Shown: positions 6,698 through 52,947 of the stretch, piece by piece
Numbering within the stretch: the stretch's first letter is position 1
Layout: the number at the start of each line of letters is the position of its first letter
DNA from: a virus
IMG/VR virus record: IMGVR_UViG_3300044624_001881
Location: 1 to 64,000 of that record
Reading direction: 5' to 3' (one strand)
Length of the DNA stretch: 64,000 nt
Translations under genes and position numbers: made by a program
Notes under the pieces: generated by a model
Database searches by the model: none
Seen by the model: only the letters and a program-made list of their open reading frames with translations
Told to the model about the DNA's origin: nothing

Positions 6698-6698
6698 T

Positions 6699-37800: not shown

Positions 37801-38144
37801 TCTATGAAGCAGGTGTTGTTCTTGGTATCGGTGGTGACAAAGAAGTTACTCTATATCAACCAGGTATGCCACTCGCTGGAGCTGTCTCTGTTAAGCCAGG
37901 TTATCGCATGAACGATAAAGATTATGGAAACGATAATTCTATCGAAGCTAAAATGAACCCATTCGTTGCTCTTAAAGGTCGTATTCCAGTTAAGATTAAT
38001 GGTTCGGCTAAGAAAGGACAGTGGATTGTTGCAGATAAAGATGGTAAGGGTCGTGCTGTAGATTACGGAAGTGATGTAAATAAGCACGAAATTATCGGTG
38101 TTGCTATCGGCAATGGTGAAGGCGAAGTAGAAGTAAAGATCTAA
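28806..38144 (+). CDS. Giant repeat-built tail fiber, 3112 aa
   Basis: GTG start, with a strong GGGGAGAG ribosome-binding site 7 bases upstream. The shaft carries more than twenty copies of a unit built around [AS]-P-x-[FY]-[YV]-D-S-x-[ND]-x-x-[YF]-[YF]-x-D-[PF]-A-x-T-S, usually followed by an I-x-x-x-[GD]-x-[IL]-x-H-x-G-D-x-[DN] segment. A jelly-roll-like domain without the repeat lies near residues 1685-1870 and may bind carbohydrate. A W-V-G-V-Q-A-L-H-F-T-D-G-S-x-R-Y-G-W-Q region near residues 2735-2790 resembles the pyocin-knob type. The C terminus (YADLAERYEADAIYEAG, then GDKEVTLYQPGMPLAGAVS) matches a terminal domain common on fibers of marine T4-like phages. It may act as the terminal chaperone. 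The gene ends flush against the antisense operon. Confidence 0.85.
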   Translation: MANDKKFIVKNGLLTQQTVVIGSATDNGVNKLQVTGSSIFTQSTSATPTISITNTGGTSNSIIAQFTGDSDSLRILNIGTGDYAIVNSQQNNGIRFYDDTAGVEILYNGSVDVAFNSTGIDFKRQPTYNGSVFWNANNDGSGSGLDADLLDGIDSLRFLRSDEDDTFNGNLTITGNLTVSGNTTTVNTETILLADNIITLNSNYTGSTPSENAGIEVERGTLTNSSLVWDETNDWWKLISVGTDLGRIITTADEGSGNGFDADTVDGLQAAQFLRSDANDTATGDIIFQGTITVGNNTAAGATIIMDGEAGNRYIFSNNNEIGFLNSAFAYAAYSDGSNNWRVLNDTYAKRFIDSDNNTYLLDPASTSVLNIIDLEGQIRHNGDTDTYLNFNAADSFEVRTGGSQRLTVTNTAVTAINQMRSPIYYDNDDITYYGDFAGNSRLNDITLVGEIIADGDTNTYLDFNAEDSFQVVTGGTARLTVSNTAVTASVNMVAPQFVDSSDNAYYGDFASTSVMNNISLEGNLQHNGDTDTYITFPALNQIGFYTASTERFLITDTYAQSSNDLRAPRFVDSANFNKFADPAGTSEFNSANFYSGAANNSVNIGIGATERFNIDITDGQGFIRYIQDETDTTDHSVNFQIISTSTGLNRFNFNKNIDVGSNSVTGAFGVFSSGVYAPVFYDNDNELFYADFNNTDVSIRVAGEIIAGDGSLTTPTFSFVSDPNTGMYRFAADTIGFSAGGNDEFRIYTTYAQAVGQMRAPIYYDSDNTAYYGDFASSSVMNTIGIDSDLFHNGDTDTKLSFNTDSITLTTANVVRLTANTTALTSSLNTYAPRFYTDDYLVHVGDENTYVGFDANDTFGVWTNGANRLSITTTAITGSVNFVGPRFVDSDNNAYYAEPASSSVFNTLGIDSDLFHNGDTDTKLAFATDSIALNTAGATRLTANNTGVYTTNLYSSGVVDAVTAVYAPIYYDKDNNSYYADFANTGTSIVAAGKIAVGKTSASAMVDVNIATAMGANPYAAGNQYIKLGDASVVDFSIAGDNLRNIWGIIESSAQFVFADSAATILLSMDATAGDVIVGDQTAQYATSDGVPTFVGALDANKLHVNGSVQLNGINNAISIYAADAGNTAISSATFLAVNELGFSGGGGFYMNDTTNIRVKNNKTLTSTGDFQAARFVDVSDTNYFVDPASTSVMNRIGIDDYIQHNGDTDNYFGFAANDTFRVFTGNTQRLNVDNDSADFAVDVYAPRYFDSANSSYYVDPASTSIMSRIDIDDYIRHRGDENNYFGFEANDTFRVFTSGTQRFNVDDNSADFAVDVYAPRYFDSNNNTFVGDFAGTSVFARVTMPQNTVGVSFSGNSNVPDYYIGQTTGDTDAWKIYGESPSGTDTASLIIAVEGDRDANEQIRFRFKNSTTFATTDALVAYHDYVQATTSFRAPIFEDSNNTAFYIDPASISVTNTMRANQFQIDGSTYIIDSPAGEYGSIRVEGAVDGTWAGYAIRDDWVFMADGATNAGIYNDTDNEWAIQFIRNGGTDLLFDGIKQAETENGHFLATNQMRAPIYYAPSSTSYWLDLDVASGTDALRIPSQINRLNFTADSGSTNNFLVAQDQNHFVWTPVTNWGIFWATNSTAAYRHTPFVDNMITFVGAGTVRAAIDLDNGNAYFQGEVTASNFRISGGNEDLGILKTYGSGLADTKMFDGTEYWEKRVIQAMQGVEDSATTVTAEYVKNNNGPFASTYALRTDQYRTFDSDYIPVEPGEQIYGEIAARYISGSGGLVYMGIRRYDKDKLPITSNDGIEYFVVSANNLTDTNWVTFSGHTTIPTTHTPFNGSDGGGCKYVRVIVLMNYPNGTGPALREYGPPVLKRTNHLSNAQFQNVTVNGNASVTGTVTGTQFIDANNNAYYVDPASTSLMNEIHVDEYIRHNGDTDSFLRFIGEDDVQLVAGGRQMLRMTEGTDPDRLRFVTDTNWTDSDGDWNMSRDITVGRTGTAVTDFRAPIFYDSANTTFYGDFASTSQLNQLILTNAEPLRFTTTSTALFDYEGASLNVPFNMQNTGGTVSDGSADGVLQLTRINHNNASTTAGAGLYFQLKDSAGTLREYAGIYGRKTVAGIGGGELVFMNYARNELAYLNSGFFRHTTDVRAPLFSDSNDTAFFMDPASTSVTNIVRANQLQLDGSTYLIDTASGDYGSIQVSGNKNGWAGYSINGQWNFMSSGPGNAGIYNDTDNEWAILAAQNSDVQIYFDGTWEERSRSGYMEARGAYYAPIFYDSDNTTYRIDGNGTSRLLTLNVDNVIGGSVNGYSTTLLFTDNRTISPSEDPAGRMRFGFTSWNNNNTSPYADYLHLRSYTDATGGSDNLVMFRKDAIGMRIWQQTWGSATAYATVRNVAIYNENPGASNDLYASIFYDSNDTAFRVDPNSVSTIRQMRVAAPVQAADYLNAAIEVREFNYGGAQTDVYATAPRIAFHWSGRVASQIAMASDGEIRILNNPGTATEAFRASNITAESALYSQIFYDSNNTARFVDPASTSQMNQIVINGQSTMATQPALVASNFGHGIYGLYDPTRYQHVWSMGTAYNLPADGLSTGATAGNLYGLAWAFNPNHSVAGTNVQAKAGLNHQLLLIQNGTTTFAAGSGMWTSGIATSTNSFRAPIFYDTDDTAFYFNGATLNDTRFEGVNARTKAMMGLSGQTRSSAELYSARPRNTADQNYWTGAMGWSTVDMNTVADWGCGFIDSSGNPGNQPAGTSHWVGVQALHFTDGSTRYGWQMVGGPIGNLRFRNTWPSFQAWRTIPVLDINNNNGGAMYAGIYYDSDDTAFYCDPTGFTNLNTGVRATDFYARDWFRNDNAGEGHYNQATGVHSYSRNANEWRLAGNNSANAMNLRGLANYDAVSRFWIHGATDGYQGFLNDAGQWVLRITHADGFSPGIRFQEEANETWTGNPGSDVGKIEYHANRFYIASGANSDRIVQFRRDGTDVSFIGNDGVFNGTATSARYADLAERYEADAIYEAGVVLGIGGDKEVTLYQPGMPLAGAVSVKPGYRMNDKDYGNDNSIEAKMNPFVALKGRIPVKINGSAKKGQWIVADKDGKGRAVDYGSDVNKHEIIGVAIGNGEGEVEVKI
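29840..37290 (+). repeat. YY-x-D-PASTS fiber-shaft repeats
   Basis: More than twenty diverged copies of the unit described for the 3112-aa fiber, spaced roughly 60-110 codons apart. Some neighbouring copies are nearly identical: compare the two runs ending F-A-V-D-V-Y-A-P-R-Y-F-D near 32540 and 32765, and the two I-D-S-D-L-F-H-N-G-D-T-D-T-K-L segments near 31170 and 31545. These point to local duplication. Confidence 0.85.
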
Positions 38145-38717
38145 TCAGTCGTCATTATATAGAAACAAATCTACTGGAAGAGCTATACGAAGAGTCGAGT
38201 CGTATCTTCTGACATGATGATAAAGGAAACCTGGGAAAATTATTACATCACCAGTTTGCGGCATGTGTACTGTTGGTTTAAACTGTGGTTGAAACTCTAA
38301 CGTGTACCCACGGTTCGCGTTAGTTCGAGGATCACTGAAAACAATTTCTCCTCCTCTATCATCATGCTCTGCCATAATATAGAAAACTGCTATAAATGGT
38401 GAGCCTGCATGGTTATGTGTATCCATACTATAGCCACTGCTATTTCCGGTAAGCCATGATTTGAACTTGAAATCATAGTCGTATAGACTTATCCCGTATA
38501 TTTTATCAAGATATTCAGCAAACTTTTCTTCAGCTAATTCTTTTAGTCGAGGAATCTTATGTATGATAACTGAAGCTTCGTCATCGCCAGGTGAAGTAAC
38601 AACCTCGTTCGACATAACTCCAGTTAATATAGTTTCACAATCTTCTTTACTAATCTTTGACAAATATACTGTAGTCGGGTAAAGATTAGTGAATCCTAAA
38701 TCCAATCTCTTCATCAT
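38145..38717 (-). CDS. 2-oxoglutarate/Fe(II)-dependent oxygenase-like protein, 190 aa
   Basis: The double-stranded beta-helix core shows iron ligands H101-x-H103 (MDTHNHAGSPFIAVFYI, residues 98-114), the distal His at 167 or 168 (GDVIIFPGFLYHHVRRY) and the 2-oxoglutarate-binding Arg at 177. The layout fits the phage 2OG-FeII_Oxy_5 type (PF13759), where the second ligand is not Asp. Such enzymes hydroxylate or otherwise oxidise a protein, peptide or small molecule; the substrate here is unknown. It is the last gene of the antisense operon. Its ATGATG start (38717, AAAGGAA upstream) lies 32 bases inside the preceding gene, and its stop abuts the 3112-aa fiber stop with no gap and no terminator. 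Confidence 0.85.
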   Translation of the reverse strand: MMKRLDLGFTNLYPTTVYLSKISKEDCETILTGVMSNEVVTSPGDDEASVIIHKIPRLKELAEEKFAEYLDKIYGISLYDYDFKFKSWLTGNSSGYSMDTHNHAGSPFIAVFYIMAEHDDRGGEIVFSDPRTNANRGYTLEFQPQFKPTVHMPQTGDVIIFPGFLYHHVRRYDSTLRIALPVDLFLYNDD

Positions 38718-39084
38718 AATATTCCTTTACGTCTGGTACCATGCCAGTCATTTTTAATGGCAGTTCAATGTCTCTTAAAATTTTGTTGTATGTTTCTTGA
38801 TCTTCTTCATATGTTTTAAAATATGGATCATTGCCAGCAAGCAACATTGGATCTTTAAGAAGCTCTATTAAATCTTCATTATAATCTTCGGATATCCAAC
38901 TTGCATAGCATACTGCTACGAAATAACTCTTCGCCGGATATATCCATTGATCTACTTTTTCATGAAAATGACGGATGATATCGTTGTAATCGTCGCTCAT
39001 GACAACATCGACTTCGTTTAGATCGTCTCGATATTCATGATTAAGTCTATGATATATCTCTTGTTTAATTTTCCACTCTTGCAT
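38686..39084 (-). CDS. Acidic protein of unknown function, 132 aa
   Basis: I do not recognise a family. The protein is acidic and Tyr-rich, with a conserved-looking core Y-F-V-A-V-C-Y-A-S-W-I-S-E-D-Y near residues 54-68 and a Y-F-K-T-Y-E-E-D-Q-E-T-Y segment near 88-99, probably alpha-helical. No signal peptide or metal motif is evident. It overlaps the upstream radical SAM gene by 20 bases and the downstream oxygenase by 32, so it belongs to the same translation-coupled operon. A substrate-recognition or partner role for the neighbouring radical SAM or oxygenase enzymes is possible but unproven. Confidence 0.7.
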   Translation of the reverse strand: MQEWKIKQEIYHRLNHEYRDDLNEVDVVMSDDYNDIIRHFHEKVDQWIYPAKSYFVAVCYASWISEDYNEDLIELLKDPMLLAGNDPYFKTYEEDQETYNKILRDIELPLKMTGMVPDVKEYYDEEIGFRIH

Positions 39085-39976
39085 TTCTATACCAATCTAA
39101 AAGTCCTTTATAACCGTTGCAACTATTTTCAAGATTATCAACATAACGATAATGCTCGGTTAAACAATTACCATAATACTTGCACTGCTTACAAATGTCG
39201 CTAATAGTTTCTTTTTCTTTTTGAGTCCATTGGATATATTCATCCCATGATTCTAGCTCTAAGAAATATTCTTTATCATATTTATCGAACTCAAGTACAC
39301 CAAATTTTCCATTCGGTGTTATGTAAATATGATTATCAGAGAAAGCGTTATACACACCTTCGTATGAATCTCGAATTCTATCTTCATTTATAAAATGAAA
39401 CTTTTTCGGAGTAAAAGCTGTTAACCATTTTATAACAAAGTTTTCATAATCTTTATGTGTAACATTATATGAATTCGCTTGGTTTATAGAATATGGTTTA
39501 ATTTCAACTGAGTCTATAGAAGAACACGTGTTTAACATATTAATCATCTCTTCTACATCCATCTCAAGAACTTGAGGTGAAGCAAGTATCAATACTGCGA
39601 TAGGAACTGGAGACATGAGCATATTTTTATAAACGAGCTCAGACTTTTCTCGTGCAGCAAAGTCATATGACACTGAGAGATACATGTCTTCTTCGTAAAA
39701 TCCTTCATGTATCATAGAGTAATTCGTTATCACGTTGATCTCTCCATCGTAATGTTTACGAATTACATCTTTCATTGAATAGAAGTAATCTTTCTTGAGC
39801 GCACCAATCTCACCACCATAAAGATCGATGTGTTCTATAGAAGGAACTTGGCTTAACAGTTCATCGAGTCTGTCTAATTCTATCTTCTTTGTATCACGAA
39901 GTTGTGATTCGGTCAGATAACAAAAGCTACAATTAAAGTTGCAGAAGTAAGAGGGGTTGATACTTACTGTGTACAT
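39065..39976 (-). CDS. Radical SAM protein with Cys-rich C terminus, 303 aa
   Basis: The cluster-binding C-x3-C-x2-C motif is at C12, C16 and C19 (YFCNFNCSFCY), followed by a Y-G-G-E-I segment near residues 53-57 that corresponds to the G-G-E motif binding the S-adenosylmethionine amino group. The C terminus has a further group of cysteines (CKQCKYYGNCLTEHYR near 260-275, then a late Cys near 285), like the auxiliary-cluster (SPASM/twitch) region of peptide-modifying enzymes. The family uses a 4Fe-4S cluster to make a 5'-deoxyadenosyl radical; the substrate here is unknown. It is shorter than most SPASM enzymes (350-450 aa). It overlaps the upstream radical SAM gene by 13 bases. Confidence 0.88.
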   Translation of the reverse strand: MYTVSINPSYFCNFNCSFCYLTESQLRDTKKIELDRLDELLSQVPSIEHIDLYGGEIGALKKDYFYSMKDVIRKHYDGEINVITNYSMIHEGFYEEDMYLSVSYDFAAREKSELVYKNMLMSPVPIAVLILASPQVLEMDVEEMINMLNTCSSIDSVEIKPYSINQANSYNVTHKDYENFVIKWLTAFTPKKFHFINEDRIRDSYEGVYNAFSDNHIYITPNGKFGVLEFDKYDKEYFLELESWDEYIQWTQKEKETISDICKQCKYYGNCLTEHYRYVDNLENSCNGYKGLLDWYRNARVEN

Positions 39977-41001
39977 GATTCATCCACATATGGAGTTGGT
40001 TCTAAATTGATACCATTAGCTCTAATAATCTCTGGTGCAAGTTGTTTCATATGTCGGCAGTGATCTTCAACCATACCAAAATTCTTTAAATCTTTTACTG
40101 TCTTTCTACAACCGTTGCATATCTCAAACATTGGACATGTAAAGCAAGATTTTTTTAACGACAACAAATTTAAATCATCAGTTAATGGTGTAGAGAACCC
40201 GCCAGCCATCTCATATTCAAAGTCTATAGCTTTATCACGATCATCACCAAATGACCCACACGAATAGTAATCACCTTCAGGATTTATATTACGTATGGTA
40301 GAATCGCATGTACGACTTTGCGGGCATATAGTATTTTTACCACTTAAACGTTTTAACATTTGTTGAGTGTTAAATTCCCAAGGAGCTAAACCAGCTTTCC
40401 AGATCTCAACATATTTTTCATAGATCTTCGATAGTCTATACGGCTTATCTTGATCTCCGCTTGCCATAGCGTAGTTAACTTTACATATCACATTCATTCT
40501 TTTTGCTAATTCAACTGTTTGAATAACAGTATCTTCGTTTTCTTCAGTGATAACCGCAAGAAACGTAGGACGATATCCGATGTGTTCAAGCATAGCATTA
40601 GAAGCATTCCAAAAATCTTCTTCACTAAATACAGAATAATCGCCTTTAAGTCTACCATTCCCGTACTGAAAAGAAGTTGCAATACCTACACGTGGATGCA
40701 AGAACAATGGTTTCCACTTTGCTATATTCTTATAGAAAGGCCAAAGGTTTGTGGTGAGTGATACTGTAGCAGGATAATCGTTATCTTCGAGATGCTTAAT
40801 GAGTCTCCAGTAATAAGCTGGACTCATCATTAATGGGTCACCACCATTTACGATGATAGTGTTTGTGTTTGGGTATCTTTTGAGAAAACGAAAGACGCGC
40901 TCAAGATCAAGTTGGGATGTGTGTTCTTCTGATATCTTTGTTGATGAGCAGAAAGTACACTTGAAGTTACACACTTCAGTGGGCTTAATAATTAAATCCA
41001 T
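39964..41001 (-). CDS. Radical SAM/SPASM-type protein, 345 aa
   Basis: The C-x3-C-x2-C motif is at C11, C15 and C18 (EVCNFKCTFCSS) and the SAM-binding N-G-G-D-P segment is near residues 51-55. The C-terminal third has a full set of extra cysteines: C-P-Q-S-R-T-C near 225-231, Y-Y-S-C-G-S-F-G, then CFTCPMFEICNGCRK near 285-299 and a later H-C-R-H. This layout is that of SPASM enzymes that mature peptides or activate sulfatases. The Asp in G-G-D-P replaces the usual Glu. The start codon is immediately adjacent to the end of the upstream 101-aa gene. The substrate is not visible from the sequence. Confidence 0.9.
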   Translation of the reverse strand: MDLIIKPTEVCNFKCTFCSSTKISEEHTSQLDLERVFRFLKRYPNTNTIIVNGGDPLMMSPAYYWRLIKHLEDNDYPATVSLTTNLWPFYKNIAKWKPLFLHPRVGIATSFQYGNGRLKGDYSVFSEEDFWNASNAMLEHIGYRPTFLAVITEENEDTVIQTVELAKRMNVICKVNYAMASGDQDKPYRLSKIYEKYVEIWKAGLAPWEFNTQQMLKRLSGKNTICPQSRTCDSTIRNINPEGDYYSCGSFGDDRDKAIDFEYEMAGGFSTPLTDDLNLLSLKKSCFTCPMFEICNGCRKTVKDLKNFGMVEDHCRHMKQLAPEIIRANGINLEPTPYVDESCTQ

Positions 41002-41307
41002 TTATATATCAGCGTTAGGTTTATCTTTGCCATACTTGTAATTACATTCTCTAAAATATTGTGTCTTATCAATAGAATCAACACCTTCAATTTCACATAA
41101 CCTACGATTAATAATACGAATCTCTTCTTTGAGAATCTGACCGTATGGTTCCATAACTTGAATCATATCCATATACATTTTATATTTCACGGGATCATTC
41201 TGAAAATCGTGCATTTTAGTGATCCAAACGTTGTATATTTCTGCGCACAGATCTCTTTCATCACCAAGATCTTTTTTCTTTTTTAATAGAGATTCAATCT
41301 CGGTCAT
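41002..41307 (-). CDS. Small helical protein of unknown function, 101 aa
   Basis: A Lys/Glu/Asp-rich protein. Residues 1-80 look wholly alpha-helical with coiled-coil character (SLLKKKKDLGDERDL and IQVMEPYGQILKEEIRIINR). I recognise no domain. It overlaps the upstream oxygenase gene by 14 bases and touches the downstream radical SAM start, so it is part of the operon. It could be a partner or substrate-binding subunit of either neighbour; the sequence does not decide this. Confidence 0.7.
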   Translation of the reverse strand: MTEIESLLKKKKDLGDERDLCAEIYNVWITKMHDFQNDPVKYKMYMDMIQVMEPYGQILKEEIRIINRRLCEIEGVDSIDKTQYFRECNYKYGKDKPNADI

Positions 41308-41821
41308 CTTCTAATCCTACACTATAATCAAAGCTAGCAAGTCTACGAGTGATTTTTGTTGACTCTGCTCTATGCCAGAATCCACGACAGTTATTCACCA
41401 TAAAAAGATCTCCAGCTTGTGGATAGAATTGAGCAGTTTCTTCTCTACCATCTTCATTATACCATTTAAAGTTAATTGATCCGCCGGTCTCAGGTTTTTG
41501 TGTATCAAAGTAATACAAGAAGAATACGTCATATCCTTCAAACATATCTGTGTGCCAACCTTGGTTGTCGGCATCAACTCCGTCCCAAACTAGAAATTTA
41601 TTATACTTTGCGTCTGGCCATTCGGGAAGAATATACTTTGTTGTTATATACTGAGCAAACGTGTACATTCGCTTAGTCAGTTCTGGACTAACATCCTTCT
41701 CACCGTTATCACGGGCACGCTCTTCAACATTAAGAAGTCTAAATTCAGATATATTTATTAGGTCAAGAGCTCCTGGTTCACTTAACTTAACAAAACCTTT
41801 GGTGTAGATATCTTTAATCAT
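41294..41821 (-). CDS. 2-oxoglutarate/Fe(II)-dependent oxygenase-like protein, 175 aa
   Basis: Iron ligands H90-x-D92 sit in NQGWHTDMFEGYDVFFLYYF, followed by G-G-S-I-N-F-K, and the distal pair H150 plus Arg 159/160 sits in GDLFMVNNCRGFWHRAES...RR. These are the complete facial triad and the 2-oxoglutarate Arg of the superfamily. The W-H-T-D motif and the short size fit phage prolyl-hydroxylase-like enzymes. Its ATG overlaps the stop of the upstream B12-type radical SAM gene by four bases (ATGA), which implies coupled translation. The substrate is unknown; a protein or peptide made by this operon is the economical guess. Confidence 0.87.
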   Translation of the reverse strand: MIKDIYTKGFVKLSEPGALDLINISEFRLLNVEERARDNGEKDVSPELTKRMYTFAQYITTKYILPEWPDAKYNKFLVWDGVDADNQGWHTDMFEGYDVFFLYYFDTQKPETGGSINFKWYNEDGREETAQFYPQAGDLFMVNNCRGFWHRAESTKITRRLASFDYSVGLEDDRD

Positions 41822-43566
41822 GCTGCGCTCTCGACATAAAGTTGTTTAAATAATTCAGATATTATGATTGGCTTATATTTAGATAATAGGTTATTAATAG
41901 TTTGATTTCTAAGTACACCATCTAATCTTTTAATGTTTTTAGAAGGAGTGTTTGGATTTAATATATCAGCGATCTCGTTGTGTATCGGTTGAAAATCATT
42001 AAGAGAAGAGATTATACCGTAACACATTTTACCAAAATTGCTAGGTGTTGTGTCGTTTTCAAACAAATGATATATTTCTTTTAATAGTGTATTACCAGCG
42101 ATATTCATAAACCACATTTCACACATATCTGCATAACTATAAGAATAACAAGAGGAAATTGTTTTAAATCTATTTCTTTTTGATTTATAGAAACTTAACT
42201 GATTATCAACACCTTCTTCATCGATAAGATCTGTATATACTTCAACTAATTGAATATTATACTTCTTAATGTAGTCTGGTTTTGTTAAATCTGAATCTGG
42301 CAAAAACATGTAGTCATGTCTAAAGCTACTCCAAGATTTAAAGTTCCATAAGATATCGAATTCTCTATAGAAATCATCTTTAGTACTTCCAGGCATTCCT
42401 AAAATTAATTCTAATGCTGGGACTGGGTATCCTTGCTCGTGGCATTTCTTATTAATATGTTCACTTAATTTTAGTTTATCTTCTAATTTTAAGTCAACTC
42501 TTGCAGCGACTTTCATTGCTTCTTCACTAACACTTTGAAGACTAACAGTTGGTACAACACTGATATATGACGTACCTTCATTAGTTTTTGCTAAATACTC
42601 GCCGTCGCCATGTGCAAGTATAAAACCAACTTCTTTTTTGGTAATGGCACTGCTATGTATTTCAGGACCAGTTCCAACGACATTAAAACACGCGTCAACA
42701 AGGCTGATTCGTCTGGCTAGATCTTTACTTTTCATCGTGCTAATGTCAGTTAGATTAGCCTTATTATCATACGCAAATTTAAAGATTTCCATATCTCGTT
42801 CAACAAAAGCACCAAAGTTTGCATCCGTAAGATACATATCTCTAAAGCCAGCATCTCTAAGTGCAAGTATATCTTGCTTTACTATATCAGTTGGCTTTTT
42901 ATATACCTTTGAACCAATACCTCCGCCCCACTCGCAGAAGCTGCAGCTGTATGGACATCCTCTTGTAGTTTCTAAGATACAAAACGGTTCAAGATAATTG
43001 CTCTGTGCATAAGTTCTTGTTTCTTTTAAGTAATCAAAGTGTTCACTATATACACTGTAGTCTTGCATAAACTGAGGGCAAGTCTTTTTACTATTAAGCT
43101 CCCACGACAAATCTTCTCGGCGAGGCTGCTTATTATTCTCAAAATAAGAATCTATTAAATCTTTTACAAACTCTTCTCCAGGCTTAGTCGGCTTTAATAT
43201 AAAGTCGTATGCTGGTCTAGAGTTTAAAAATTCAGGATCGTTTGTGCCGATCTGCGGGCCACCCAATACACAAATGGCATTTGGATTGATTTGTTTGACT
43301 AGAGAACACAATGAGTCGCATATATCGTAATTCCAGATATAGCTTGAGAATAAAAAGATGTCTGCATCCTTTACTTCTTCGTGTATATCTTCAATTGATT
43401 CATAAGCATTAAATTTATATGGTGCTGGGATCCAATTGACTTGATCATTGAACTTACCATATCTTTTATAATGACTCTGAAACATTAAATACGCAGCGTT
43501 ATTTGCTAAACACCAATCAGCATGTGGCGGGTTTATAAACGCAATATTAATTTTTTGATTTAACAT
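41818..43566 (-). CDS. Cobalamin-type (class B) radical SAM protein, ~582 aa
   Basis: The N-terminal ~150 residues are a Rossmann-like B12-binding-type domain (INIAFINPPHADW, D-A-D-I-F-L-F-S-S-Y-I-W, V-L-G-G-P-Q-I-G). The radical SAM core follows, with C204, C208 and C211 (ETTRGCPYSCSFCEWGGG). Residues after about 400 form an extra C-terminal domain of mixed character. Class B enzymes often methylate unreactive carbons or form new C-C bonds. A D-x-H-x-x-G motif for cobalamin-His ligation is not evident, so a base-off mode or loss of B12 binding is possible. I chose ATG 43566 because the conserved fold begins there. A GTG at 43596 would add ten Arg/Lys-rich residues and lengthen the overlap with the upstream gene from 20 to 50 bases. 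Confidence 0.88.
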   Translation of the reverse strand: MLNQKINIAFINPPHADWCLANNAAYLMFQSHYKRYGKFNDQVNWIPAPYKFNAYESIEDIHEEVKDADIFLFSSYIWNYDICDSLCSLVKQINPNAICVLGGPQIGTNDPEFLNSRPAYDFILKPTKPGEEFVKDLIDSYFENNKQPRREDLSWELNSKKTCPQFMQDYSVYSEHFDYLKETRTYAQSNYLEPFCILETTRGCPYSCSFCEWGGGIGSKVYKKPTDIVKQDILALRDAGFRDMYLTDANFGAFVERDMEIFKFAYDNKANLTDISTMKSKDLARRISLVDACFNVVGTGPEIHSSAITKKEVGFILAHGDGEYLAKTNEGTSYISVVPTVSLQSVSEEAMKVAARVDLKLEDKLKLSEHINKKCHEQGYPVPALELILGMPGSTKDDFYREFDILWNFKSWSSFRHDYMFLPDSDLTKPDYIKKYNIQLVEVYTDLIDEEGVDNQLSFYKSKRNRFKTISSCYSYSYADMCEMWFMNIAGNTLLKEIYHLFENDTTPSNFGKMCYGIISSLNDFQPIHNEIADILNPNTPSKNIKRLDGVLRNQTINNLLSKYKPIIISELFKQLYVESAA

Positions 43567-44557
43567 ACCTAAACGTCTCTTTAAAAACACATTCACCTAG
43601 ATCTCTTTTTATCTTAGAGTAATCATTCTTTATGAAGCATGTAAATGGACACTTTTTATAGAATTCGCACTCGAAGCAATTATATTTATTAATAAATTTC
43701 TCGACAATTGCACCAGAGAACAAATCATTCGAGGATGGATTTTTAAGGAATAATGAACCAGAACACCCTGTTGGTACAGGACCAGTTGGTAACATAGTAT
43801 AACTGTTACCTCTAGTACATGACATCTTATTAGTTGGATTATCTTCAGTAAAGTATGCTATATTTATGCAGTCAGGATAGTTATCAACGAGATGCTTGTA
43901 GAATGATAACATTTCTGTTTCACTGGGCATTAAAGCTTCAGAAGTATCAACTGCAGGAATAAGCGAGTCAAAATCGCAAGGAAAACGTTGATAAAGATAA
44001 TCAAAATACTTATCGCCATTGATAATGGCTTTCATGCTCTGTTTTGTTGCAACGCAGCTAATCATTCGAATACGATCACTTAACAAAACTACATTCTGTT
44101 TAAATTTCTCGAATTGTTGCTGGTTAAATCTTCCAGTAGGATCGTACGACACAGACACAATATAATCATGCTCTTCTAAGAATGATTTGATGGCGTCTAC
44201 GTTGTCAAACAATAGATTAGTAATAAAATTGGCTTCAACAAATTTATCACCAGAAATTTTATTGCGAATATCTACTATAAACTGTTGATAGATATCAAGA
44301 AAACCTCGGTCTATCCAACGATCTTGGAATAGTTCTCCACCCATTAAGTGTATCTTAAAATGTGTTGATCTTTTATTGCTGTTGATCCAAGCGGCAATGT
44401 TATCAGCCTTAGCTAAGATTTCTTCTCTGCTAGCTCCGACAATTGAGTTGTGGTCTTGAGGACAGAATACACATGCTAAATTGCAGTGTTCAAATAAGCA
44501 TACGACTATTTCAGCATAATTAATGACCTTTTGGTCAATCAAATTGTATATACTCAC
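43547..44557 (-). CDS. Radical SAM/SPASM-type protein, 336 aa
   Basis: The cluster motif is at C25, C29 and C32 (FEHCNLACVFCPQDHN), and the SAM-binding segment is H-L-M-G-G-E near residues 69-74. The C terminus has the extra cysteines of a SPASM-type auxiliary region: C-T-R-G near 257, G-C-S-G-S near 274, then CFECEFYKKCPFTCF near 303-317 and a last Cys near 326. The start is GTG, and its GTGA overlaps the stop of the upstream oxygenase gene. The C-P-Q-D-H-N continuation is like that of several peptide-modifying SPASM proteins. Reaction and substrate are unknown. Confidence 0.9.
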   Translation of the reverse strand: MSIYNLIDQKVINYAEIVVCLFEHCNLACVFCPQDHNSIVGASREEILAKADNIAAWINSNKRSTHFKIHLMGGELFQDRWIDRGFLDIYQQFIVDIRNKISGDKFVEANFITNLLFDNVDAIKSFLEEHDYIVSVSYDPTGRFNQQQFEKFKQNVVLLSDRIRMISCVATKQSMKAIINGDKYFDYLYQRFPCDFDSLIPAVDTSEALMPSETEMLSFYKHLVDNYPDCINIAYFTEDNPTNKMSCTRGNSYTMLPTGPVPTGCSGSLFLKNPSSNDLFSGAIVEKFINKYNCFECEFYKKCPFTCFIKNDYSKIKRDLGECVFKETFRYVKSKN

Positions 44558-45036
44558 TTTATTGCCGGAATTGTAAACTCGAATGATAAGAGTCTTCTAG
44601 GACCACTAAGATGGGTTGCTCTATGCTGAAACTTTTTATTTTGATTTAACCATACAAACTGATTCTTGTTAGGATATATTTTAAATTCCTCAGTCGGTGT
44701 TTTAATCTCAATAGAATTACCATGTAGCTCGCCATCATCGAGATATATTAAAAAATTGCTATTGAATTCTTCATTGCTATCATTGTGCCAATCACTGGAC
44801 ATGTTATCTACACCGGTCCACATACCTCGTTCACCAATAGAATATTCGTCAAATAATGATGAAACATACTTTTTAGCTACATGTCGATGCAATATATCAA
44901 GCAACTCTACAGCTTCTTCTTCAAGCTCTGCTTCACCATTATTACAATCAGGAAATTCAAATTTTTTAAATAAGAATGCTGCGTCTAATGTTAAAAAATC
45001 ACTTGTAAATCCATTAATTAAAAAATTATTAATCAT
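44554..45036 (-). CDS. 2-oxoglutarate/Fe(II)-dependent oxygenase-like protein, 160 aa
   Basis: The facial triad is H84-x-D86 (SSDWHNDSNEEFNSNFLIYL) and H138 (KNQFVWLNQNKKFQHRATH), with Arg 147/148 placed to bind 2-oxoglutarate (G-P-R-R-L-L-S-F-E-F). The arrangement is that of the other two oxygenases of this operon, but the sequences are strongly diverged, so they are not recent duplicates. It starts two bases after the end of the 389-aa gene and overlaps the next gene by four bases (GTGA). An oxidising step on a peptide or protein is likely; the substrate is unknown. Confidence 0.82.
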   Translation of the reverse strand: MINNFLINGFTSDFLTLDAAFLFKKFEFPDCNNGEAELEEEAVELLDILHRHVAKKYVSSLFDEYSIGERGMWTGVDNMSSDWHNDSNEEFNSNFLIYLDDGELHGNSIEIKTPTEEFKIYPNKNQFVWLNQNKKFQHRATHLSGPRRLLSFEFTIPAIK

Positions 45037-45038
45037 TA

Positions 45039-46208
45039 TTACCTCAATGTATACTTAAAAAGTATTTCCTTATTTTCGTAATTTTGTAAAAGATGATCGA
45101 CAAAATATGTATTAACAGATCCTAAATCGATTGCATAAAATGCGCCAGCTGCATGATTGTGATGATGAAGTTCGTACTCTATAATCTTTTTCATGTTTTC
45201 TACACTGATGATATCACTATCAGCAAAGAATGGAATAAAATCAAACTTATCAATTTCAGATCTTAAAACTGTATACCACTGCTCATCCGTCCAAACAGTA
45301 CCAGTAACAATACTGTATTGTCTTAATACAGGTATGTCTGCAGCAGTAAAGTTGCGAAGATTAATAGTGCTAGTAGCAGAAGGAGCGTACATAGAGGTTT
45401 TAGTAGTTCCCCAAACGTTTACTCTACACATTACTTCTATCATAGGTGCTGGGTCATTCGCCATATCATAGAAGTTGTCAAAAGTATACGGCCCGTTTTG
45501 AACTTGAAGAAGCTGCTGAAAAACCGGCTTTTGAAAATGAACAAGAAGAATTTCTTTGTGTTCGTAAAGAAACTTTTCTAAATCTTTTTTTACTAAAGGT
45601 GACATCGATATTGCTAAGGCCTGTGCGTATCTTTCGTCGTACAAATACGAGGCTAATAAAAACTCAACACTTAGCATTGGTCTAATTGAATCGATAAACG
45701 AGTCAAAATTATCGCCAGTTGGAAGAGGATCTTGCGAATAACAGGTTAGGAATTTAGCTTCTTCTAACTGCCATGTTTCAGATATGCCATTAGCAAATCT
45801 TTGAGTGGCTGACATTCGGCTATTAACAAAGTTCTTTTCTTTAAACATGTGAGATTTAAAAAATTTCCAAGCGTCTGTATCAGAAGCATTCGGTAAAATT
45901 AATTTAAGCCATTGGCTGGCTAGATGATAATAAGAATCGTAATCGCAATATATGTAAAAAGGTCGCGAGTTTAATTCACTGCATTCTTTTGCTGCTATTA
46001 ACAAATCTGTGAACGAAGCGTATGGAGCACCTTCTCCGAATAGTTCACCTACTGATTTAACAGAAGCTAAGATTTTTCCATAAAATACAACAGCTAAATC
46101 TTCATACGCATCAATACCACCGTTTTCTTGTGAGACTATAATACGATTTTGACTCATGCTTATCTTTTCATCAAAATCAAGATATATTTTATTGAACAGG
46201 TGGAACAT
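45039..46208 (-). CDS. Protein of unknown function in the radical SAM operon, 389 aa
   Basis: I recognise no family. The N terminus (MFHLFNKIYLDFDEKI, then Q-N-R-I-I-V-S-Q) looks like the edge of a globular alpha/beta domain. Residues about 60-115 continue with F-Y-I-Y-C-D-Y-D-S-Y-Y. The last 60 residues contain a His cluster (YELHHHNHAAGAFYAIDLG) that could bind metal. No C-x3-C-x2-C and no clear HxD...H triad is seen. It overlaps the 244-aa gene upstream by 20 bases, and the two look like functional partners. It lies between the Cys/His-tailed protein and the modifying enzymes, so a recognition or transfer role is conceivable. Confidence 0.72.
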   Translation of the reverse strand: MFHLFNKIYLDFDEKISMSQNRIIVSQENGGIDAYEDLAVVFYGKILASVKSVGELFGEGAPYASFTDLLIAAKECSELNSRPFYIYCDYDSYYHLASQWLKLILPNASDTDAWKFFKSHMFKEKNFVNSRMSATQRFANGISETWQLEEAKFLTCYSQDPLPTGDNFDSFIDSIRPMLSVEFLLASYLYDERYAQALAISMSPLVKKDLEKFLYEHKEILLVHFQKPVFQQLLQVQNGPYTFDNFYDMANDPAPMIEVMCRVNVWGTTKTSMYAPSATSTINLRNFTAADIPVLRQYSIVTGTVWTDEQWYTVLRSEIDKFDFIPFFADSDIISVENMKKIIEYELHHHNHAAGAFYAIDLGSVNTYFVDHLLQNYENKEILFKYTLR

Positions 46209-46923
46209 TTTCTAACTCCTGAATTTCTTTTTGAATTTCTAATAGTGATGTTGCAACACTAGCGTCATATTGTTCCTTAGTCACGATTCCATTTGCTATA
46301 CCCCAAGTTAAAAGGAACATGGGATTATTTTCATTAGCCCAGTACGAATAAAGATTCTGTCCTTTAAACATGTATTCGTTAAAGTACTTAGAATAATATA
46401 TTATATTTTCTTCCTTTATGTTTTCATAAAAGCTATAAAATTCTTCGTGCTTTAACAAGCTAACAAAATTGATACCTTCTGTAGAGTCGGTGTCATTAGT
46501 TGGTAGGCTTATAATCTGTTCTTTAATAGAATCATCATTGATGCAGTACATATTAAAAAGTATTAGAGAGTCTAATTTCTCTATCCACGAATCTAACAAG
46601 TGACCATACTTTTCTACAACAGTGGGAGTAAAATTTTCTTTAAGACCTTTACGTTGTAATAGCATGTCGATTACTCTATATTCTAATGATGGAATATTAA
46701 CAATATGAGTAAACTTTAGATAAGCTTCAACCATATCAAATAACGAATCATTTGTATCATATAAAATGTCGCAAGGAAGATCAAGATTACCTAGATATAT
46801 TAATAGCTTTTCACCCTTAATATCAGAAATACCGTAGTCTATAATATACTTAGTGTCTTTGTCTTGAAAATAAAGTTTCAGGTCTTCAATACCAATTGGT
46901 GCTTTTGTTGTAATAACATTCAT
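46189..46923 (-). CDS. Protein of unknown function in the radical SAM operon, 244 aa
   Basis: I recognise no family. The protein is Asp/Glu/Tyr-rich, with an alpha/beta-looking N-terminal half (DTKYIIDYGISDIKGEKLLI) and a helical C-terminal half (EEFYSFYENIKEENIIYYSK near residues 160-179). No signal peptide, membrane segment or metal motif is visible. It starts 12 bases after the end of the Cys/His-tailed protein gene, the closest downstream neighbour of the proposed substrate, and overlaps the 389-aa gene by 20 bases. The sequence does not reveal a function. Confidence 0.72.
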   Translation of the reverse strand: MNVITTKAPIGIEDLKLYFQDKDTKYIIDYGISDIKGEKLLIYLGNLDLPCDILYDTNDSLFDMVEAYLKFTHIVNIPSLEYRVIDMLLQRKGLKENFTPTVVEKYGHLLDSWIEKLDSLILFNMYCINDDSIKEQIISLPTNDTDSTEGINFVSLLKHEEFYSFYENIKEENIIYYSKYFNEYMFKGQNLYSYWANENNPMFLLTWGIANGIVTKEQYDASVATSLLEIQKEIQELENVPPVQ

Positions 46924-46935
46924 AATATAGATTCC

Positions 46936-47577
46936 TTATCTGCGGCCGCGAGACACATGGCAGTTGTTATGGCAAGAAGCATGACAAACGTTCACTTGCT
47001 GTGTATGAACGGTTGCTCGAGCAGTGTTATACGCGGTTCTTAAATTTGTGAAGAATGCTTCTAGATTTGCGGTGTTAATTAGAGAAACACCGTCATTTGC
47101 TATACCAGTAGATACGGTTCCAGCAAGGCCTTGTAAATAAGATGTATTTAAATTTGAAACGTTAGTACTGTCACGAATAATGCCGGGTCCTTGTCCAGTA
47201 ATAGGGCCCAAGTCTGTTCTTACGTTGTTTCCTGTGCCATTACCAGTAGGACGAGGAGTAATAAACCCGGTTCCAGTAATAAACAGAATAGCTCTCATAT
47301 TACGAATACGTGTAAAAGTTGCTGTTTCAGTTCTTAAAACGTTTATAATTGTAGAGGCGGTAATTAGACCAGTTGGCCCGCCTATGCTAGTTCCGTTAAT
47401 ACCTATGCCTTTACCGCTAGCGTTTCCACCAAAGATGTTTGGAAAATATCCTGAGTAAACATCGAATGGAAAAGCGCCGCTGTGCCACACAATTCCAGCA
47501 TTTGCACTAGCTACGACGTAATCGGCAAATCTATCTACAATGTTTTGTGCGTTAATGTTATTTGTAAGTACTGCCAT
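46936..47577 (-). CDS. Candidate modification substrate with Cys/His C-terminal tail, 213 aa
   Basis: The body (residues 1-195) is Asn/Gly/Thr/Ile-rich and beta-type, with W-H-S-G-A-F-P-F near 31-38 and Gly-rich segments (GNASGKGIGINGTSIGGPTG), like a small virion or fiber-tip protein. It ends in CHASCHNNCHVSRGRR: three C-H pairs spaced four residues apart, two of them followed by x-Ser, then an Arg-rich end. The body contains no other Cys, so all three are in the tail. A tail of this kind directly downstream of a SPASM radical SAM gene (20-base overlap) resembles precursor/maturase pairs, and the H-x-S pattern recalls the His-Xaa-Ser system. At 213 aa it is longer than a typical peptide precursor, so it may instead be a structural protein modified at its end. 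Confidence 0.8.
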   Translation of the reverse strand: MAVLTNNINAQNIVDRFADYVVASANAGIVWHSGAFPFDVYSGYFPNIFGGNASGKGIGINGTSIGGPTGLITASTIINVLRTETATFTRIRNMRAILFITGTGFITPRPTGNGTGNNVRTDLGPITGQGPGIIRDSTNVSNLNTSYLQGLAGTVSTGIANDGVSLINTANLEAFFTNLRTAYNTARATVHTQQVNVCHASCHNNCHVSRGRR

Positions 47578-48598
47578 TTATCTCTTCATCCAATCTTAGC
47601 ATAAGTAATTTAGGTGCCGGACAAACATCGCCTTCCCATTCTAATTGATGACAATCCCCACCGCAATATTTATACATTGGACATTGATAACAACGTGGAT
47701 CGCGGCTGAGCTCGCTAGCGATTATTTGGCACCTTTTCGGTGAATTTATTATTTCTTTAGCAGAATTATTTATATGTCCATAGACCTCTTCTGGTGCTGC
47801 ATTAGGACATCCCGAGATGCCGCCATCAGCATTAATGGTAAACAATTTCTGTTCACAGTCTCTACAGAAAGTACCACCCTTTGTAAATCCAGTTTCAAAC
47901 TTTGAGTACACGTTCTCAAGAAATCCATTATGAAACCATTCACGAGCACCATACTCTTCTGTTTGTTCATGTAACTTTACGAACCAATGTTGAAGTTCTA
48001 TATTCGTTGGAAAAACAAACAGGTTTTTCTTAGCATATCCGTTTGATGTAACACGTTCTAGATCTAATTCTTGAACACCAAGACTCTTTGCATACTTTAA
48101 AATTTCTATTGGTTCCATCGATACGGCGTCTTTTGTAAGAGATACAAAAAGCTTTATCGTGTAGCCTCTATCAATTAAAAATCTTACGTTATCTTCAAAT
48201 AGTTGTCTTTGTTTCTCATTAGCAAAACGAATCTTAGGATCCCAAGAAGTACCAATTCTTTTCTGTAATACATTATCCATAAAATCTAGTTTATCTTCAG
48301 TGAGCTTGTAAACTAGATTTGTTGTTGCGCCATATGTTGAATCATTCCAAACGTCTTTTGTAAGATCATAGAATTTTCTCATGTCTTCTATCTTAGCGAG
48401 AAAAGGTTCTCCACCATGATATTCAAAATGACATGTTGCTTCAGGTCTTATTTGCTTTACTTCGTTTACCCATCGAGCAACATTTTCCGGATCGAAATAG
48501 ATTTTCTTTCCGTTTTTACCAGAAGTAAAACAATGAGAGCAATCTAAGTTACAGGTCTCAGTTGTTTTGATATAAAATACTAGATTGTTTTGAATCAT
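47558..48598 (-). CDS. Radical SAM/SPASM peptide-maturase-like protein, 346 aa
   Basis: The cluster motif is at C16, C20 and C23 (KTTETCNLDCSHCFTSGKNG), and the SAM-binding motif is E-Y-H-G-G-E-P near residues 59-65. The C-terminal SPASM region is complete-looking: C-R-D-C near 243-246, GGISGCPNAAPEEVYG near 257-272, then RCYQCPMYKYCGGDCHQLEW near 302-321 and a final Cys near 327. G-G-D-C-H-Q-x-x-W is typical of SPASM maturases that modify peptides at specific side chains, as in sulfatase activation or RiPP maturation. It is the first radical SAM gene of the operon and overlaps the cupin gene by one base and the Cys/His-tailed protein gene by 20. That neighbourhood makes it the best candidate to modify that tail. 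Confidence 0.93.
   Translation of the reverse strand: MIQNNLVFYIKTTETCNLDCSHCFTSGKNGKKIYFDPENVARWVNEVKQIRPEATCHFEYHGGEPFLAKIEDMRKFYDLTKDVWNDSTYGATTNLVYKLTEDKLDFMDNVLQKRIGTSWDPKIRFANEKQRQLFEDNVRFLIDRGYTIKLFVSLTKDAVSMEPIEILKYAKSLGVQELDLERVTSNGYAKKNLFVFPTNIELQHWFVKLHEQTEEYGAREWFHNGFLENVYSKFETGFTKGGTFCRDCEQKLFTINADGGISGCPNAAPEEVYGHINNSAKEIINSPKRCQIIASELSRDPRCYQCPMYKYCGGDCHQLEWEGDVCPAPKLLMLRLDEEINGSTYK
47667..47674 (-). promoter_or_regulatory. Possible internal late promoter (TATAAATA, minus strand)
   Basis: Reading leftward, TATAAATA lies 90 bases before the start of the Cys/His-tailed protein gene, within the codons for M-Y-K-Y of the radical SAM gene. It is an exact match to the late box, but the coding constraint means it may be accidental. 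Confidence 0.4.
47767..47774 (-). promoter_or_regulatory. Possible internal late promoter (TATAAATA, minus strand)
   Basis: A second exact late box on the minus strand, exactly 100 bases upstream of the one at 47667-47674 and 190 bases before the start of the Cys/His-tailed protein gene. It lies in codons for H-I-N-N of the radical SAM gene. Confidence 0.4.
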
Positions 48599-49005
48599 TA
48601 TTGACCTACAGAAAGAATAACAGATCTATATAGATTTGTAGCTTCATGAGGAGTACCCTGTGGAATAAAAATATGTTCCCCTTCAGAAATAATCATTTGC
48701 TCTCCGTCAACATTCATAGTCTTAGTACCTTCAATACAATAAATAGTAACATCACAGGTATCCTCGTGAACGCCAAATGATTTAGCTCCTTCTGGAGAAA
48801 TAAAACAGTGAACTGTGTTCGGATAAAACTCATTAGTTACCCGTTCTATGTCTTCTATTTTTACGGTTTTAGTATTTTCTGCTATATAAAAAATAGCTTT
48901 GTTCTTATCTATAGGATGATCTAAACCATCATCATCTATAACAAAACACTTAAAATCTATTGTAGAATATTCGATATATTCTAATATTTTATTCAAAGTT
49001 ATCAT
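48598..49005 (-). CDS. Cupin protein with HxD...H metal site, 135 aa
   Basis: A cupin barrel: H80-E81-D82 (KSFGVHEDTCDVTIYCIEG), G-x-K/T in the G-T-K-T-M strand, and H120 in EHIFIPQGTPHEATN. The H-x-D...H spacing is that of Fe(II) enzymes of the JmjC/cupin type, and V-H-E-D-x-x-D-V is typical of that group. A 2-oxoglutarate-binding residue is not obvious at this length. It could oxidise a substrate or only bind metal. Its ATG overlaps the stop of a 42-codon membrane-type frame by four bases (ATGA), and it overlaps the radical SAM gene downstream by one base. It is the first clearly recognisable gene of the leftward operon. Confidence 0.82.
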   Translation of the reverse strand: MITLNKILEYIEYSTIDFKCFVIDDDGLDHPIDKNKAIFYIAENTKTVKIEDIERVTNEFYPNTVHCFISPEGAKSFGVHEDTCDVTIYCIEGTKTMNVDGEQMIISEGEHIFIPQGTPHEATNLYRSVILSVGQ

Positions 49006-49130
49006 ATAAAACTCACAGGTTTAGTCTTCATCATGTTAGTATTTATTCTTCGGACCTTGTAGCAGAAACCTATTATCCAAAAATAATAAATACCAAGTAG
49101 AATGAGAGCTTTCATAAAAGGCAACGTCAT
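49002..49130 (-). CDS. Possible small membrane protein, 42 aa
   Basis: A short frame read leftward from ATG 49130 (MTLPFM) or ATG 49115, with a hydrophobic stretch KALILLGIYYFWIIGF followed by a basic K-V-R-R segment. This is a single membrane span of N-out/C-in charge pattern. Its TGA overlaps the cupin ATG as ATGA, the coupling used elsewhere in this operon. No clear Shine-Dalgarno sequence precedes either start, and the start at 49130 overlaps the opposite-strand late promoter. It may be a real leader gene or a chance frame. Confidence 0.45.
   Translation of the reverse strand: MTLPFMKALILLGIYYFWIIGFCYKVRRINTNMMKTKPVSFI
49040..49047 (-). promoter_or_regulatory. Probable late promoter variant AATAAATA for the leftward operon
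   Basis: AATAAATA read on the minus strand, 35 bases before the cupin start, is one base off the late consensus and shows the same spacing as the exact boxes elsewhere. It would open the radical SAM operon. If the 42-aa frame is real, the box lies inside it. Confidence 0.5.
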
Positions 49131-49137: not shown

Positions 49138-49171
49138 GATCTATTATCTAACTCATAACATGGAGATAAAC

Positions 49172-49540
49172 ATGGCTTTTACATATAATTGGTCAGTTAC
49201 AAGTCTTAAAGTAAAAGACGAAGTAAATGCTGACGGAGAAACACTCCAAAATGCTGTTGTCCAAACATATTGGAAAGTAGTTGGTACAGATAGCAATGGT
49301 AATACTGGTGAGTTCTCGGGTGCTACACCATTCAGCGCAGCTAACGTTCCAGCTGGTTCGTTTGTAGCTTTTGCTGATCTTACAGAAGAAACAGTTCTCA
49401 ACTGGATTAAAAACGTTGTTAATGGTGATCCTTCTTACAAGGCTCACATCGACAGCCAACTTCAAAGACGTATTGATGCTGAAGTATCTGTTGAAAAGTC
49501 TGGCGCAGCTCTTCCTTGGGCCGTTCCTGGCTCGGAATAA
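49172..49540 (+). CDS. Small conserved phage protein, tandem paralog 1, 122 aa
   Basis: MAFTYNWSVTSLKVKDEVNA begins a beta-type N-terminal half with Q-T-Y-W-K-V-V-G-T-D. The C-terminal half is helical (EETVLNWIKNVVNGDPSYKA) and the end is A-L-P-W-A-V-P. I believe similar proteins are widespread in T4-like marine phages, without known function. I chose ATG 49172, with GGAG 7 bases upstream, rather than ATG 49160, whose codons overlap that ribosome-binding site. It is paralogous to the following gene. Confidence 0.75.
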   Translation: MAFTYNWSVTSLKVKDEVNADGETLQNAVVQTYWKVVGTDSNGNTGEFSGATPFSAANVPAGSFVAFADLTEETVLNWIKNVVNGDPSYKAHIDSQLQRRIDAEVSVEKSGAALPWAVPGSE

Positions 49541-49556
49541 TTAAGGATATTTTAAA

Positions 49557-49889
49557 GTGAATTACACTTGGCAAATTTTAAGTCTTGGTCTTAAAGATCA
49601 AATCAACCAAGATGGTGAACTTCTTCAAGATGCAATTGTTTTTGTTCACTGGAAAAAAATTGCTGAAGATGCGAATGGTAGCAGAGCAAGTTATCTTGGA
49701 AAGACTGAACTTTCTGCAGCTAACGTGTCTGCCGAATCCTTTATCAATCTAAATGTAGTAGCTAAAGAAGATGTAATAGATTGGATAGAAAACAGTCTTA
49801 CAGCTTCGCAAAGAAACAGCATTGAAAATATTCTATTGAAGAAAATTGAAAAAAGTAAGCTAAAAAAATACACCCCATCTTGGGGATAA
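49557..49889 (+). CDS. Small conserved phage protein, tandem paralog 2, 110 aa
   Basis: GTG start with AAGGA 9 bases upstream. It shares with the preceding protein the sequence of elements Y-x-W-x-[VI]-x-S-L, K-D-[EQ]-[VI]-N-x-D-G-E-x-L-Q-[ND]-A-[VI]-V, Y/H-W-K, S-A-A-N-V and [VD]-x-[ND]-W-I-[KE]-[ND]. The two are therefore diverged tandem duplicates. The C terminus is Lys-rich (KKIEKSKLKKYTPSWG), unlike the first copy. The function is unknown. Confidence 0.72.
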   Translation: MNYTWQILSLGLKDQINQDGELLQDAIVFVHWKKIAEDANGSRASYLGKTELSAANVSAESFINLNVVAKEDVIDWIENSLTASQRNSIENILLKKIEKSKLKKYTPSWG

Positions 49890-50959: not shown

Positions 50960-50962
50960 GAC

Positions 50963-52195: not shown

Positions 52196-52947
52196 GAGTA
52201 GTAGTTGTTACCGGCGGATTCGATCCACTTCATTCTGGTCACATAGCTTATTTTAAAGCTGCTAAAGAGCTTGGTGATATTCTTTGTGTAGGAGTTAATA
52301 GCGACAATTGGTTAACTCGTAAAAAGGGTAAACCATTCATGCCATTCGAAGAAAGAAAAAACATTGTTGAAAACATTAAATGTGTAGGTAATGCTTTTGG
52401 TTTTAATGATGACGATGGTTCTGCTATTGAAGCTATTCGTCACATAAAAAATATGTTTCCTCGTAATTCAGAAATTGTCTTCGCAAACGGTGGAGACCGC
52501 ACAAAAGATAATATTCCCGAAATGGTATTCGATGATGTTGAATTTGTTTTTGGAGTTGGTGGAGAGGATAAGAAGAATAGCTCTTCTTGGATTCTATCAA
52601 ACTGGGATAAACCAACTACACAGAGATCATGGGGTAAGTACAGAGACTTAGATAAAAATGGTCATTGGAAAGTAAAAGAACTTTCTATTGATGTTGGTAA
52701 ATCTTTAAGCGATCAGAGACACTTTAAACGTTCAGAACATTGGCACATTGTAGATGGTGCTCTTGAAATGAATCTTGAGTTTGATAATGGATACAAAACT
52801 TCTAAGGTTTATAAAACCGGTGAGAGCATTGATATTCCTATGCTTTCTTGGCATAAAGCTGTTAACGTTGGTACTACTCCAGTTAAAGTAATTGAAGTCT
52901 GGATGGGTACTGAACTATCTGAGGAAGATATTGAAAGAAGAACATAG
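52192..52947 (+). CDS. Cytidylyltransferase-like domain fused to a mannose-6-phosphate-isomerase-type cupin, 251 aa
   Basis: The N-terminal domain is a nucleotidyltransferase: GGFDPLHSGHIAYFKAA with the H-x-G-H motif at residues 14-17, and K-N-S-S-S-W-I-L near 124-131 in the place of the family's second motif. From about residue 140 a cupin of the ManC/phosphomannose isomerase type follows: R-S-W-G-K-Y, then DQRHFKRSEHWHIVDGALEM and D-I-P-M-L-S-W-H-K. The fusion suggests synthesis or activation of a phosphosugar to a nucleotide-sugar. AAGGAG sits 6 bases before ATG 52192, whose ATGA overlaps the stop of the preceding gene; a longer frame from 52165 lacks such a site. Confidence 0.85.
   Translation: MRVVVVTGGFDPLHSGHIAYFKAAKELGDILCVGVNSDNWLTRKKGKPFMPFEERKNIVENIKCVGNAFGFNDDDGSAIEAIRHIKNMFPRNSEIVFANGGDRTKDNIPEMVFDDVEFVFGVGGEDKKNSSSWILSNWDKPTTQRSWGKYRDLDKNGHWKVKELSIDVGKSLSDQRHFKRSEHWHIVDGALEMNLEFDNGYKTSKVYKTGESIDIPMLSWHKAVNVGTTPVKVIEVWMGTELSEEDIERRT

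Follow-up and report, generated by a model that had tools for sequence, protein, structure and literature searches.

Why does a T4-like phage carry an antisense operon of radical S-adenosylmethionine (SAM) enzymes and oxygenases among its structural genes? We addressed this question in a window of 64,000 nucleotides, the whole stretch of DNA analysed (IMG/VR record IMGVR_UViG_3300044624_001881, positions 1 to 64,000), in which 14 minus-strand open reading frames (ORFs) occupy positions 38145-49005. Because the gaps between them are only -50 to +12 nt, we treat the 14 ORFs as one operon. It encodes five radical SAM enzymes (four of SPASM/twitch type and one of B12 type), three 2-oxoglutarate (2OG)-Fe oxygenases, a cupin, a 213-amino-acid (aa) protein with a Cys/His-containing C-terminal tail (hereafter the CH tail), and four unknowns. 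The original prediction had described this set of enzymes from the DNA letters, and indeed all 14 ORFs exist and their profile matches agree with it; the operon ends at 49005, not at 49130 as first proposed. At the left end of the window lies a baseplate wedge gene, followed by several tail fibres; genes for the head-tail adaptor, head closure (neck), tail sheath stabiliser, and terminase occupy the right end, and the operon sits in the tail-fibre/neck region. Its last gene abuts, in convergent orientation, the gene of a 3112-aa tail fibre (28806-38144, plus strand). We consider it probable that the operon serves to mature the tail of a fibre-associated virion protein, which would be assembled together with the giant fibre once finished. 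We know of no phage fibre protein that is matured by radical SAM enzymes.

The candidate substrate is the 213-aa protein (46936-47577, minus strand), which has the C-terminal end VCHASCHNNCHVSRGRR. It comprises a folded N-terminal domain and the C-terminal tail CHASCHNNCHVSRGRR, the codons for which, together with the stop, span 46936-46986. Its relatives combine a variable N-terminal domain (mean column identity 18%) with an invariant tail, CHx(S)CHxxCHx(S)R(G)RR, that ends exactly at the stop codon. We quote conservation only from loci selected by radical SAM/SPASM enzyme A (47558-48598, minus strand, the gene immediately preceding that of the tail protein), where the tail was recognised by CHxxCHxxCH near a stop, because the search with the tail pattern predetermined the C, H, and R positions. 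In this set (50 distinct proteins), no variation is seen at the C, H, and three R positions and almost none at the S and G positions. A DNA pattern for the tail matches at least 119 viral contigs, and the tail lay exactly at the C terminus, with the stop codon next, in 98 of the 100 in-frame motif matches that we examined. AlphaFold2 modelled the N-terminal domain confidently and the tail as disordered, a prediction that fits an accessible substrate. A PDB search with the tail protein fold returned nothing significant, the family has no Pfam or NCBIfam entry, and a literature search with the tail letters gave chance words only. Because the full-length protein recovered a single isolate as a tblastn query, we chose the enzymes and the tail motif as queries instead.

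These searches showed that tail and enzymes travel together. The original prediction had proposed to look for the gene set in other marine T4-like phages; we found it, in the same order, in about 100 or more viral contigs and in jumbo phage isolates from four host genera, and we therefore conclude that the operon is not a chance assembly. The locus counts given here contain some redundancy: near-identical contigs occur more than once, and the two locus searches share part of their loci. Starting from the tail, a radical SAM gene of this set lay within 6 kb in 66 of 66 loci with 2.5 kb of downstream sequence. Starting from enzyme A alone, the tail was present in 58 of 80 loci; in 7 others a tail pair lay at another place on the record, and the last 15 loci are fragments from which the expected tail site appears to have been cut off. 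The enzyme A search found syntenic operons in the isolates Pseudomonas pPa_SNUABM_DT01, Agrobacterium Atu_ph07, Sinorhizobium Phosso, Burkholderia SURPRISE13, FLC6, and FLC8 (according to the literature, the FLC6 enzymes resemble proteins of the Ralstonia jumbo phage RSF1). In the five jumbo phages examined, the gene after enzyme A encodes a protein of 178-306 aa whose N-terminal part is divergent and whose tail reads CHxSCHxxCHx[SA]R[GS]RR. Most often the genes run fibre, cupin, A, tail, X, Y, B, (B12), C, D, Z, with oxygenase genes scattered among them; B to D are further radical SAM enzymes and X to Z are unknowns. In a second form, the fibre gene is followed immediately by two tandem tail proteins of ~127 aa, and additional radical SAM genes form an array. 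In Burkholderia phages, two dihydrofolate reductase-like genes lie within the operon (L004:20391-21568). Erwinia phage phiEaH2 has a different pair (L126:12817-16179), in which a 68-aa peptide ending HYNCGGSCSWTCSGGCSHGAGNR is encoded close to two radical SAM genes; the peptide gene lies behind a virion protein gene, and the peptide occurs in 66 phage records, mostly from Erwinia and Salmonella phages.

The operon is also fixed in position relative to the fibre. The 3112-aa fibre ends in the ARYADLAERYE... domain (its last 150 residues), which was found in 125 of 197 loci, and in 121 of these 125 scorable loci the operon follows the fibre gene, the next operon gene on the same strand (less than 400 nt behind the fibre end) being the cupin (90), the tail protein (30), or enzyme A (1). 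Of the other four, two have the cupin slightly farther away and two are convergent like the window. Because of the two-way co-occurrence and this fixed position, we take the 213-aa protein as the probable target, which strengthens the earlier suggestion that this Cys/His-tailed protein is what the enzymes act on. The operon occupies the same place as the pelagimyophage host recognition cluster, which lies between VrlC and the neck gene gp14 and includes radical SAM cassettes mentioned without explanation (PMC7029224). For Atu_ph07, the majority of the virion proteins identified by electrospray ionization tandem mass spectrometry fall in the clusters CDS 31-76, 170-215, and 284-329 (PMC6102473). 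Its gp170 is the CH-tailed protein, with the numbering checked via gp215, the major head protein; a virion cluster starting at CDS 170 suggests that gp170 is in Atu_ph07 particles.

A gene just behind a distal fibre gene recalls T2/T4 gp38 and other tip proteins, a likeness of position alone, and we know of no need for modifying enzymes in the case of gp38. The same position, resembling that of gene 38, would also fit a CH-tailed protein that is a fibre-assembly chaperone, as T4 gp38 is, outside the virion and with modification serving folding only. We regard this as very unlikely given the boundary of the Atu_ph07 cluster and the plasmid-borne tail proteins described below, whose exported look (signal-peptide-like N termini) argues for a surface role.

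Are the enzymes capable of such a pathway? Profile hidden Markov model searches supported the radical SAM, SPASM, B12-binding, 2OG-Fe, and cupin folds that had been expected, and Pfam, NCBIfam, and PHROGs profiles back the radical SAM assignment of the genes starting at 39065, 39964, 41818, 43547, and 47558. The CX3CX2C motif, predicted for all five, is kept at 95-100% across the radical SAM enzymes (30-103 homologues) and the SPASM/twitch cysteines at 97-100%; only the placement in the 41818 product needed correction, to 214/218/221 with a GTG start from 204/208/211. Enzymes A, B, and C have a full SPASM-type Cys complement, while D has only four extra Cys, a twitch-like arrangement. Enzyme A (Radical_SAM 7e-7; SPASM 2e-7) has 11 Cys conserved at 97% or more and matches the SPASM profile TIGR04085 above its cut-off; enzyme C (39964-41001; radical SAM 2.9e-11; SPASM 7e-5) matches the same profile below it and is the best conserved, with 53-60% identity to the jumbo phage versions. 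Enzyme B (43547-44557; phrog_1802 1.6e-27) has CX3CX2C at 95% and C247-C323 at 97-100%, and enzyme D (39065-39976) has a radical SAM match of 5e-7 and four further conserved Cys. Counterparts of A to D are present across the four jumbo-phage host groups. The fifth enzyme (41818-43596), a possible C-methylase, has an N-terminal B12-binding domain (8.5e-7) followed by the radical SAM domain, with PF02310 and PF04055 both slightly below cut-off and a KedN5-family match (4e-31) that is still below the family cut-off.

The metal ligands of the cupin and oxygenases are likewise 99-100% conserved. In the two 2OG-Fe(II) oxygenases at 41294-41821 (PF13640 2.1e-5) and 44554-45036 (PF13640 6.7e-4), both below the Pfam cut-off, the predicted HxD...H...R residues are 100% conserved. 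In the third (38145-38717; PF13759 2e-10), H101, H103, H167, and R177 are 100% conserved, so that its first motif is H-N-H rather than the HxD proposed as one option. The cupin (48598-49005, operon gene 1; Cupin_2 4.9e-10, partial JmjC_2 3e-7) has the HxD...H residues H80, D82, and H120 conserved at 100% in 98 homologues. Among the four unknowns, X (46189-46923; phrog_20767) is conserved, usually follows the tail gene immediately, and is a candidate partner or scaffold; its AlphaFold2 model is confident (pLDDT 92.8) and had no fold match in a PDB search. Y (45039-46208), after X, is poorly conserved in the locus comparison, Z (38686-39084; phrog_20737, 4e-38) is conserved and present in 55 of the 80 enzyme A loci, and a small protein of 101 aa (41002-41307) has a look-alike, judged by eye, in a Bdellovibrio-like genome (L236:5991-6272).

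From these features, we propose that the newly made 213-aa protein consists of a folded N-terminal domain and an invariant, flexible tail (CHxSCHxxCHxSRGRR), and that tail residues would be modified in the infected cell by the cupin, radical SAM enzymes A to D, the B12 enzyme, and the oxygenases. The outcome may be cross-linked, methylated, and/or hydroxylated Cys, His, Ser, or Arg; what is known of the families would allow the SPASM enzymes to form thioether or carbon cross-links, the B12 enzyme to C-methylate, and the oxygenases to hydroxylate. X, Y, and Z would probably be partners of the modifying enzymes. The finished protein would join the virion with the adjacent giant fibre, most likely at the host-contacting end, like T2 gp38. 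A multi-step protein-modification pathway acting on a virion part, the interpretation first offered for this operon, is the best-supported reading.

The chemistry of the operon invites comparison with ribosomally synthesized and post-translationally modified peptides (RiPPs) such as dynobactin, darobactin, and His-Xaa-Ser, where SPASM enzymes likewise lie beside a protein with a conserved C-terminal target-like stretch. The tail might then be a core peptide that is cleaved off the 213-aa precursor and set free as a small bioactive molecule (an antimicrobial, signal, or metallophore), with the fibre neighbourhood incidental. SPASM enzymes, B12 radical SAM enzymes, and oxygenases are typical of RiPP clusters, and a ribosomal precursor with a conserved core-like segment on a variable carrier does lie beside tailoring enzymes here; however, the carrier is a folded domain in a protein of 120-310 aa, its place behind the fibre gene is fixed, the Atu_ph07 virion cluster starts at its homologue, and we saw no immunity gene in the operon. 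The best NCBIfam relatives of enzyme A (TIGR04083, DynA, and HxsB) are all far below family cut-offs. We consider release of a peptide unlikely, and although the system would operate in the manner of RiPP maturation, we did not file the operon as a RiPP cluster because neither a RiPP recognition element (RRE) nor a leader protease or exporter was recognised.

Several observations count against fibre-linked maturation itself. No PqqD-like RRE profile was found on the operon proteins scanned (Pfam E ≤ 0.1), although a divergent RRE could escape such a scan, and no leader protease or exporter profile occurs in the 14 genes, although these may lie elsewhere in the genome or in the host. Structural matches to the N-terminal domain came only from its own family and three unannotated ctijX18 phage proteins, and attachment to the fibre is our inference. 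The fibre end domain is also present in phages without the operon (Campylobacter and PA5oct-type phages), which weakens it as a specific partner. The gene set, the intact catalytic motifs, the invariant tail, the two-way co-occurrence, and the position behind a fibre gene are what the analysis shows; from these we infer the tail modification, its chemistry, the virion location, and the contact role.

A similar tail occurs outside phages. In the Pseudomonas megaplasmid pQBR103 (L141:5636-16019), several radical SAM genes surround a 124-aa protein ending YCHSACHGACHGACHGARGWR, and the locus adjoins prepilin and type II/IV secretion genes. Homologues of this protein are found on 129 Pseudomonas/Stutzerimonas plasmid records, and those of pQBR57 (L238) and a P. 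aeruginosa megaplasmid have signal-peptide-like N termini and the same tail. The pQBR/IncP-2 radical SAM cluster has been reported as conserved, with its function unexplained (PMC13391042, PMC7070040). Like the phage operon, it combines several radical SAM genes with a small protein, here ending CHxACHGACHGACHG[SA]RGWR; it differs in having four CH repeats, an RGWR end, a secreted-looking carrier unrelated to the phage one, and type IV pilus neighbours, and its enzymes are only distantly related to those of the phage (best 99.6 bits to C and 112 bits to A).

The plasmids bear on a further alternative, in which the tail stays unmodified and serves as a metal-binding tip or a tag for fibre assembly, and the enzymes act on something else, such as the fibre itself, glycans, or a cofactor. 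Metal-bound tips are in use in phage spikes, CHxxCHxxCH could bind Zn, Fe, or Cu, and glycan-related plus-strand genes lie nearby. Tail and enzymes nevertheless co-occur strictly in both directions in phages, and the plasmid tail adjoins radical SAM genes even though its carrier protein is unrelated; we judge this alternative to be quite unlikely.

Predatory bacteria also carry the system. Bdellovibrio-like genomes carry the phage-type operon on the chromosome, where its neighbours are genes for acyl-CoA/3-hydroxyacyl-CoA dehydrogenase, cbb3 oxidase, or an AMP-binding enzyme; these metabolic genes led us to reject stray phage contigs as the source of L235, L236, and L237. We also rejected the tail as a general bacterial motif: it occurs in 13 contigs of the GTDB set, and in 0 of 398 other genomes from one phylum versus 6 of 369 in the predators' phylum. 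In L235, L236, and L140, the tail/enzyme operon adjoins a fibre gene whose product ends in Peptidase_S74 or a relative of it, a likeness to the mosaic adhesive trimers of Bdellovibrio, which uses S74-class surface fibres on prey (PMC10769870); the text of that paper mentions neither post-translational modification nor cysteine. Beside the L235 operon (Halobacteriovoraceae), the protein of 6258-7292 has a prepilin-like N terminus and a Peptidase_S74 end and is a possible pilin-fibre fusion. The thread common to phages, megaplasmids, and predators may be an appendage that touches another bacterium. More tentatively, all three could share one device, a radical-SAM-built CH tail at a fibre or pilus tip that grips or breaches the target surface, a possibility that we put below even odds.

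Elsewhere in the window, the fibre encoded at 18167-22255 contains 11 stretches of long collagen-like repeats and has an S74 chaperone at its end. Plus-strand genes at 49925-52947 are weakly similar to sugar enzymes, including a cytidylyltransferase/mannose-6-phosphate isomerase fusion, and two DUF7936 proteins (49160-49889) adjoin them.

The radical SAM set is not unique to this phage, and the pelagimyophage cassettes noted earlier lie at the same genome place, with no substrate, tail, or mechanism given in the available part of that paper (PMC7029224). Our reading suggests a function for radical SAM clusters left unexplained in the plasmid and pelagiphage studies. If it is true, a widespread phage group would spend about 10 kb on one modified peptide end that touches the host, a similar solution would recur in conjugation and predation, and the operon would supply new peptide-modifying enzymes whose substrate, of 16 residues, is defined.
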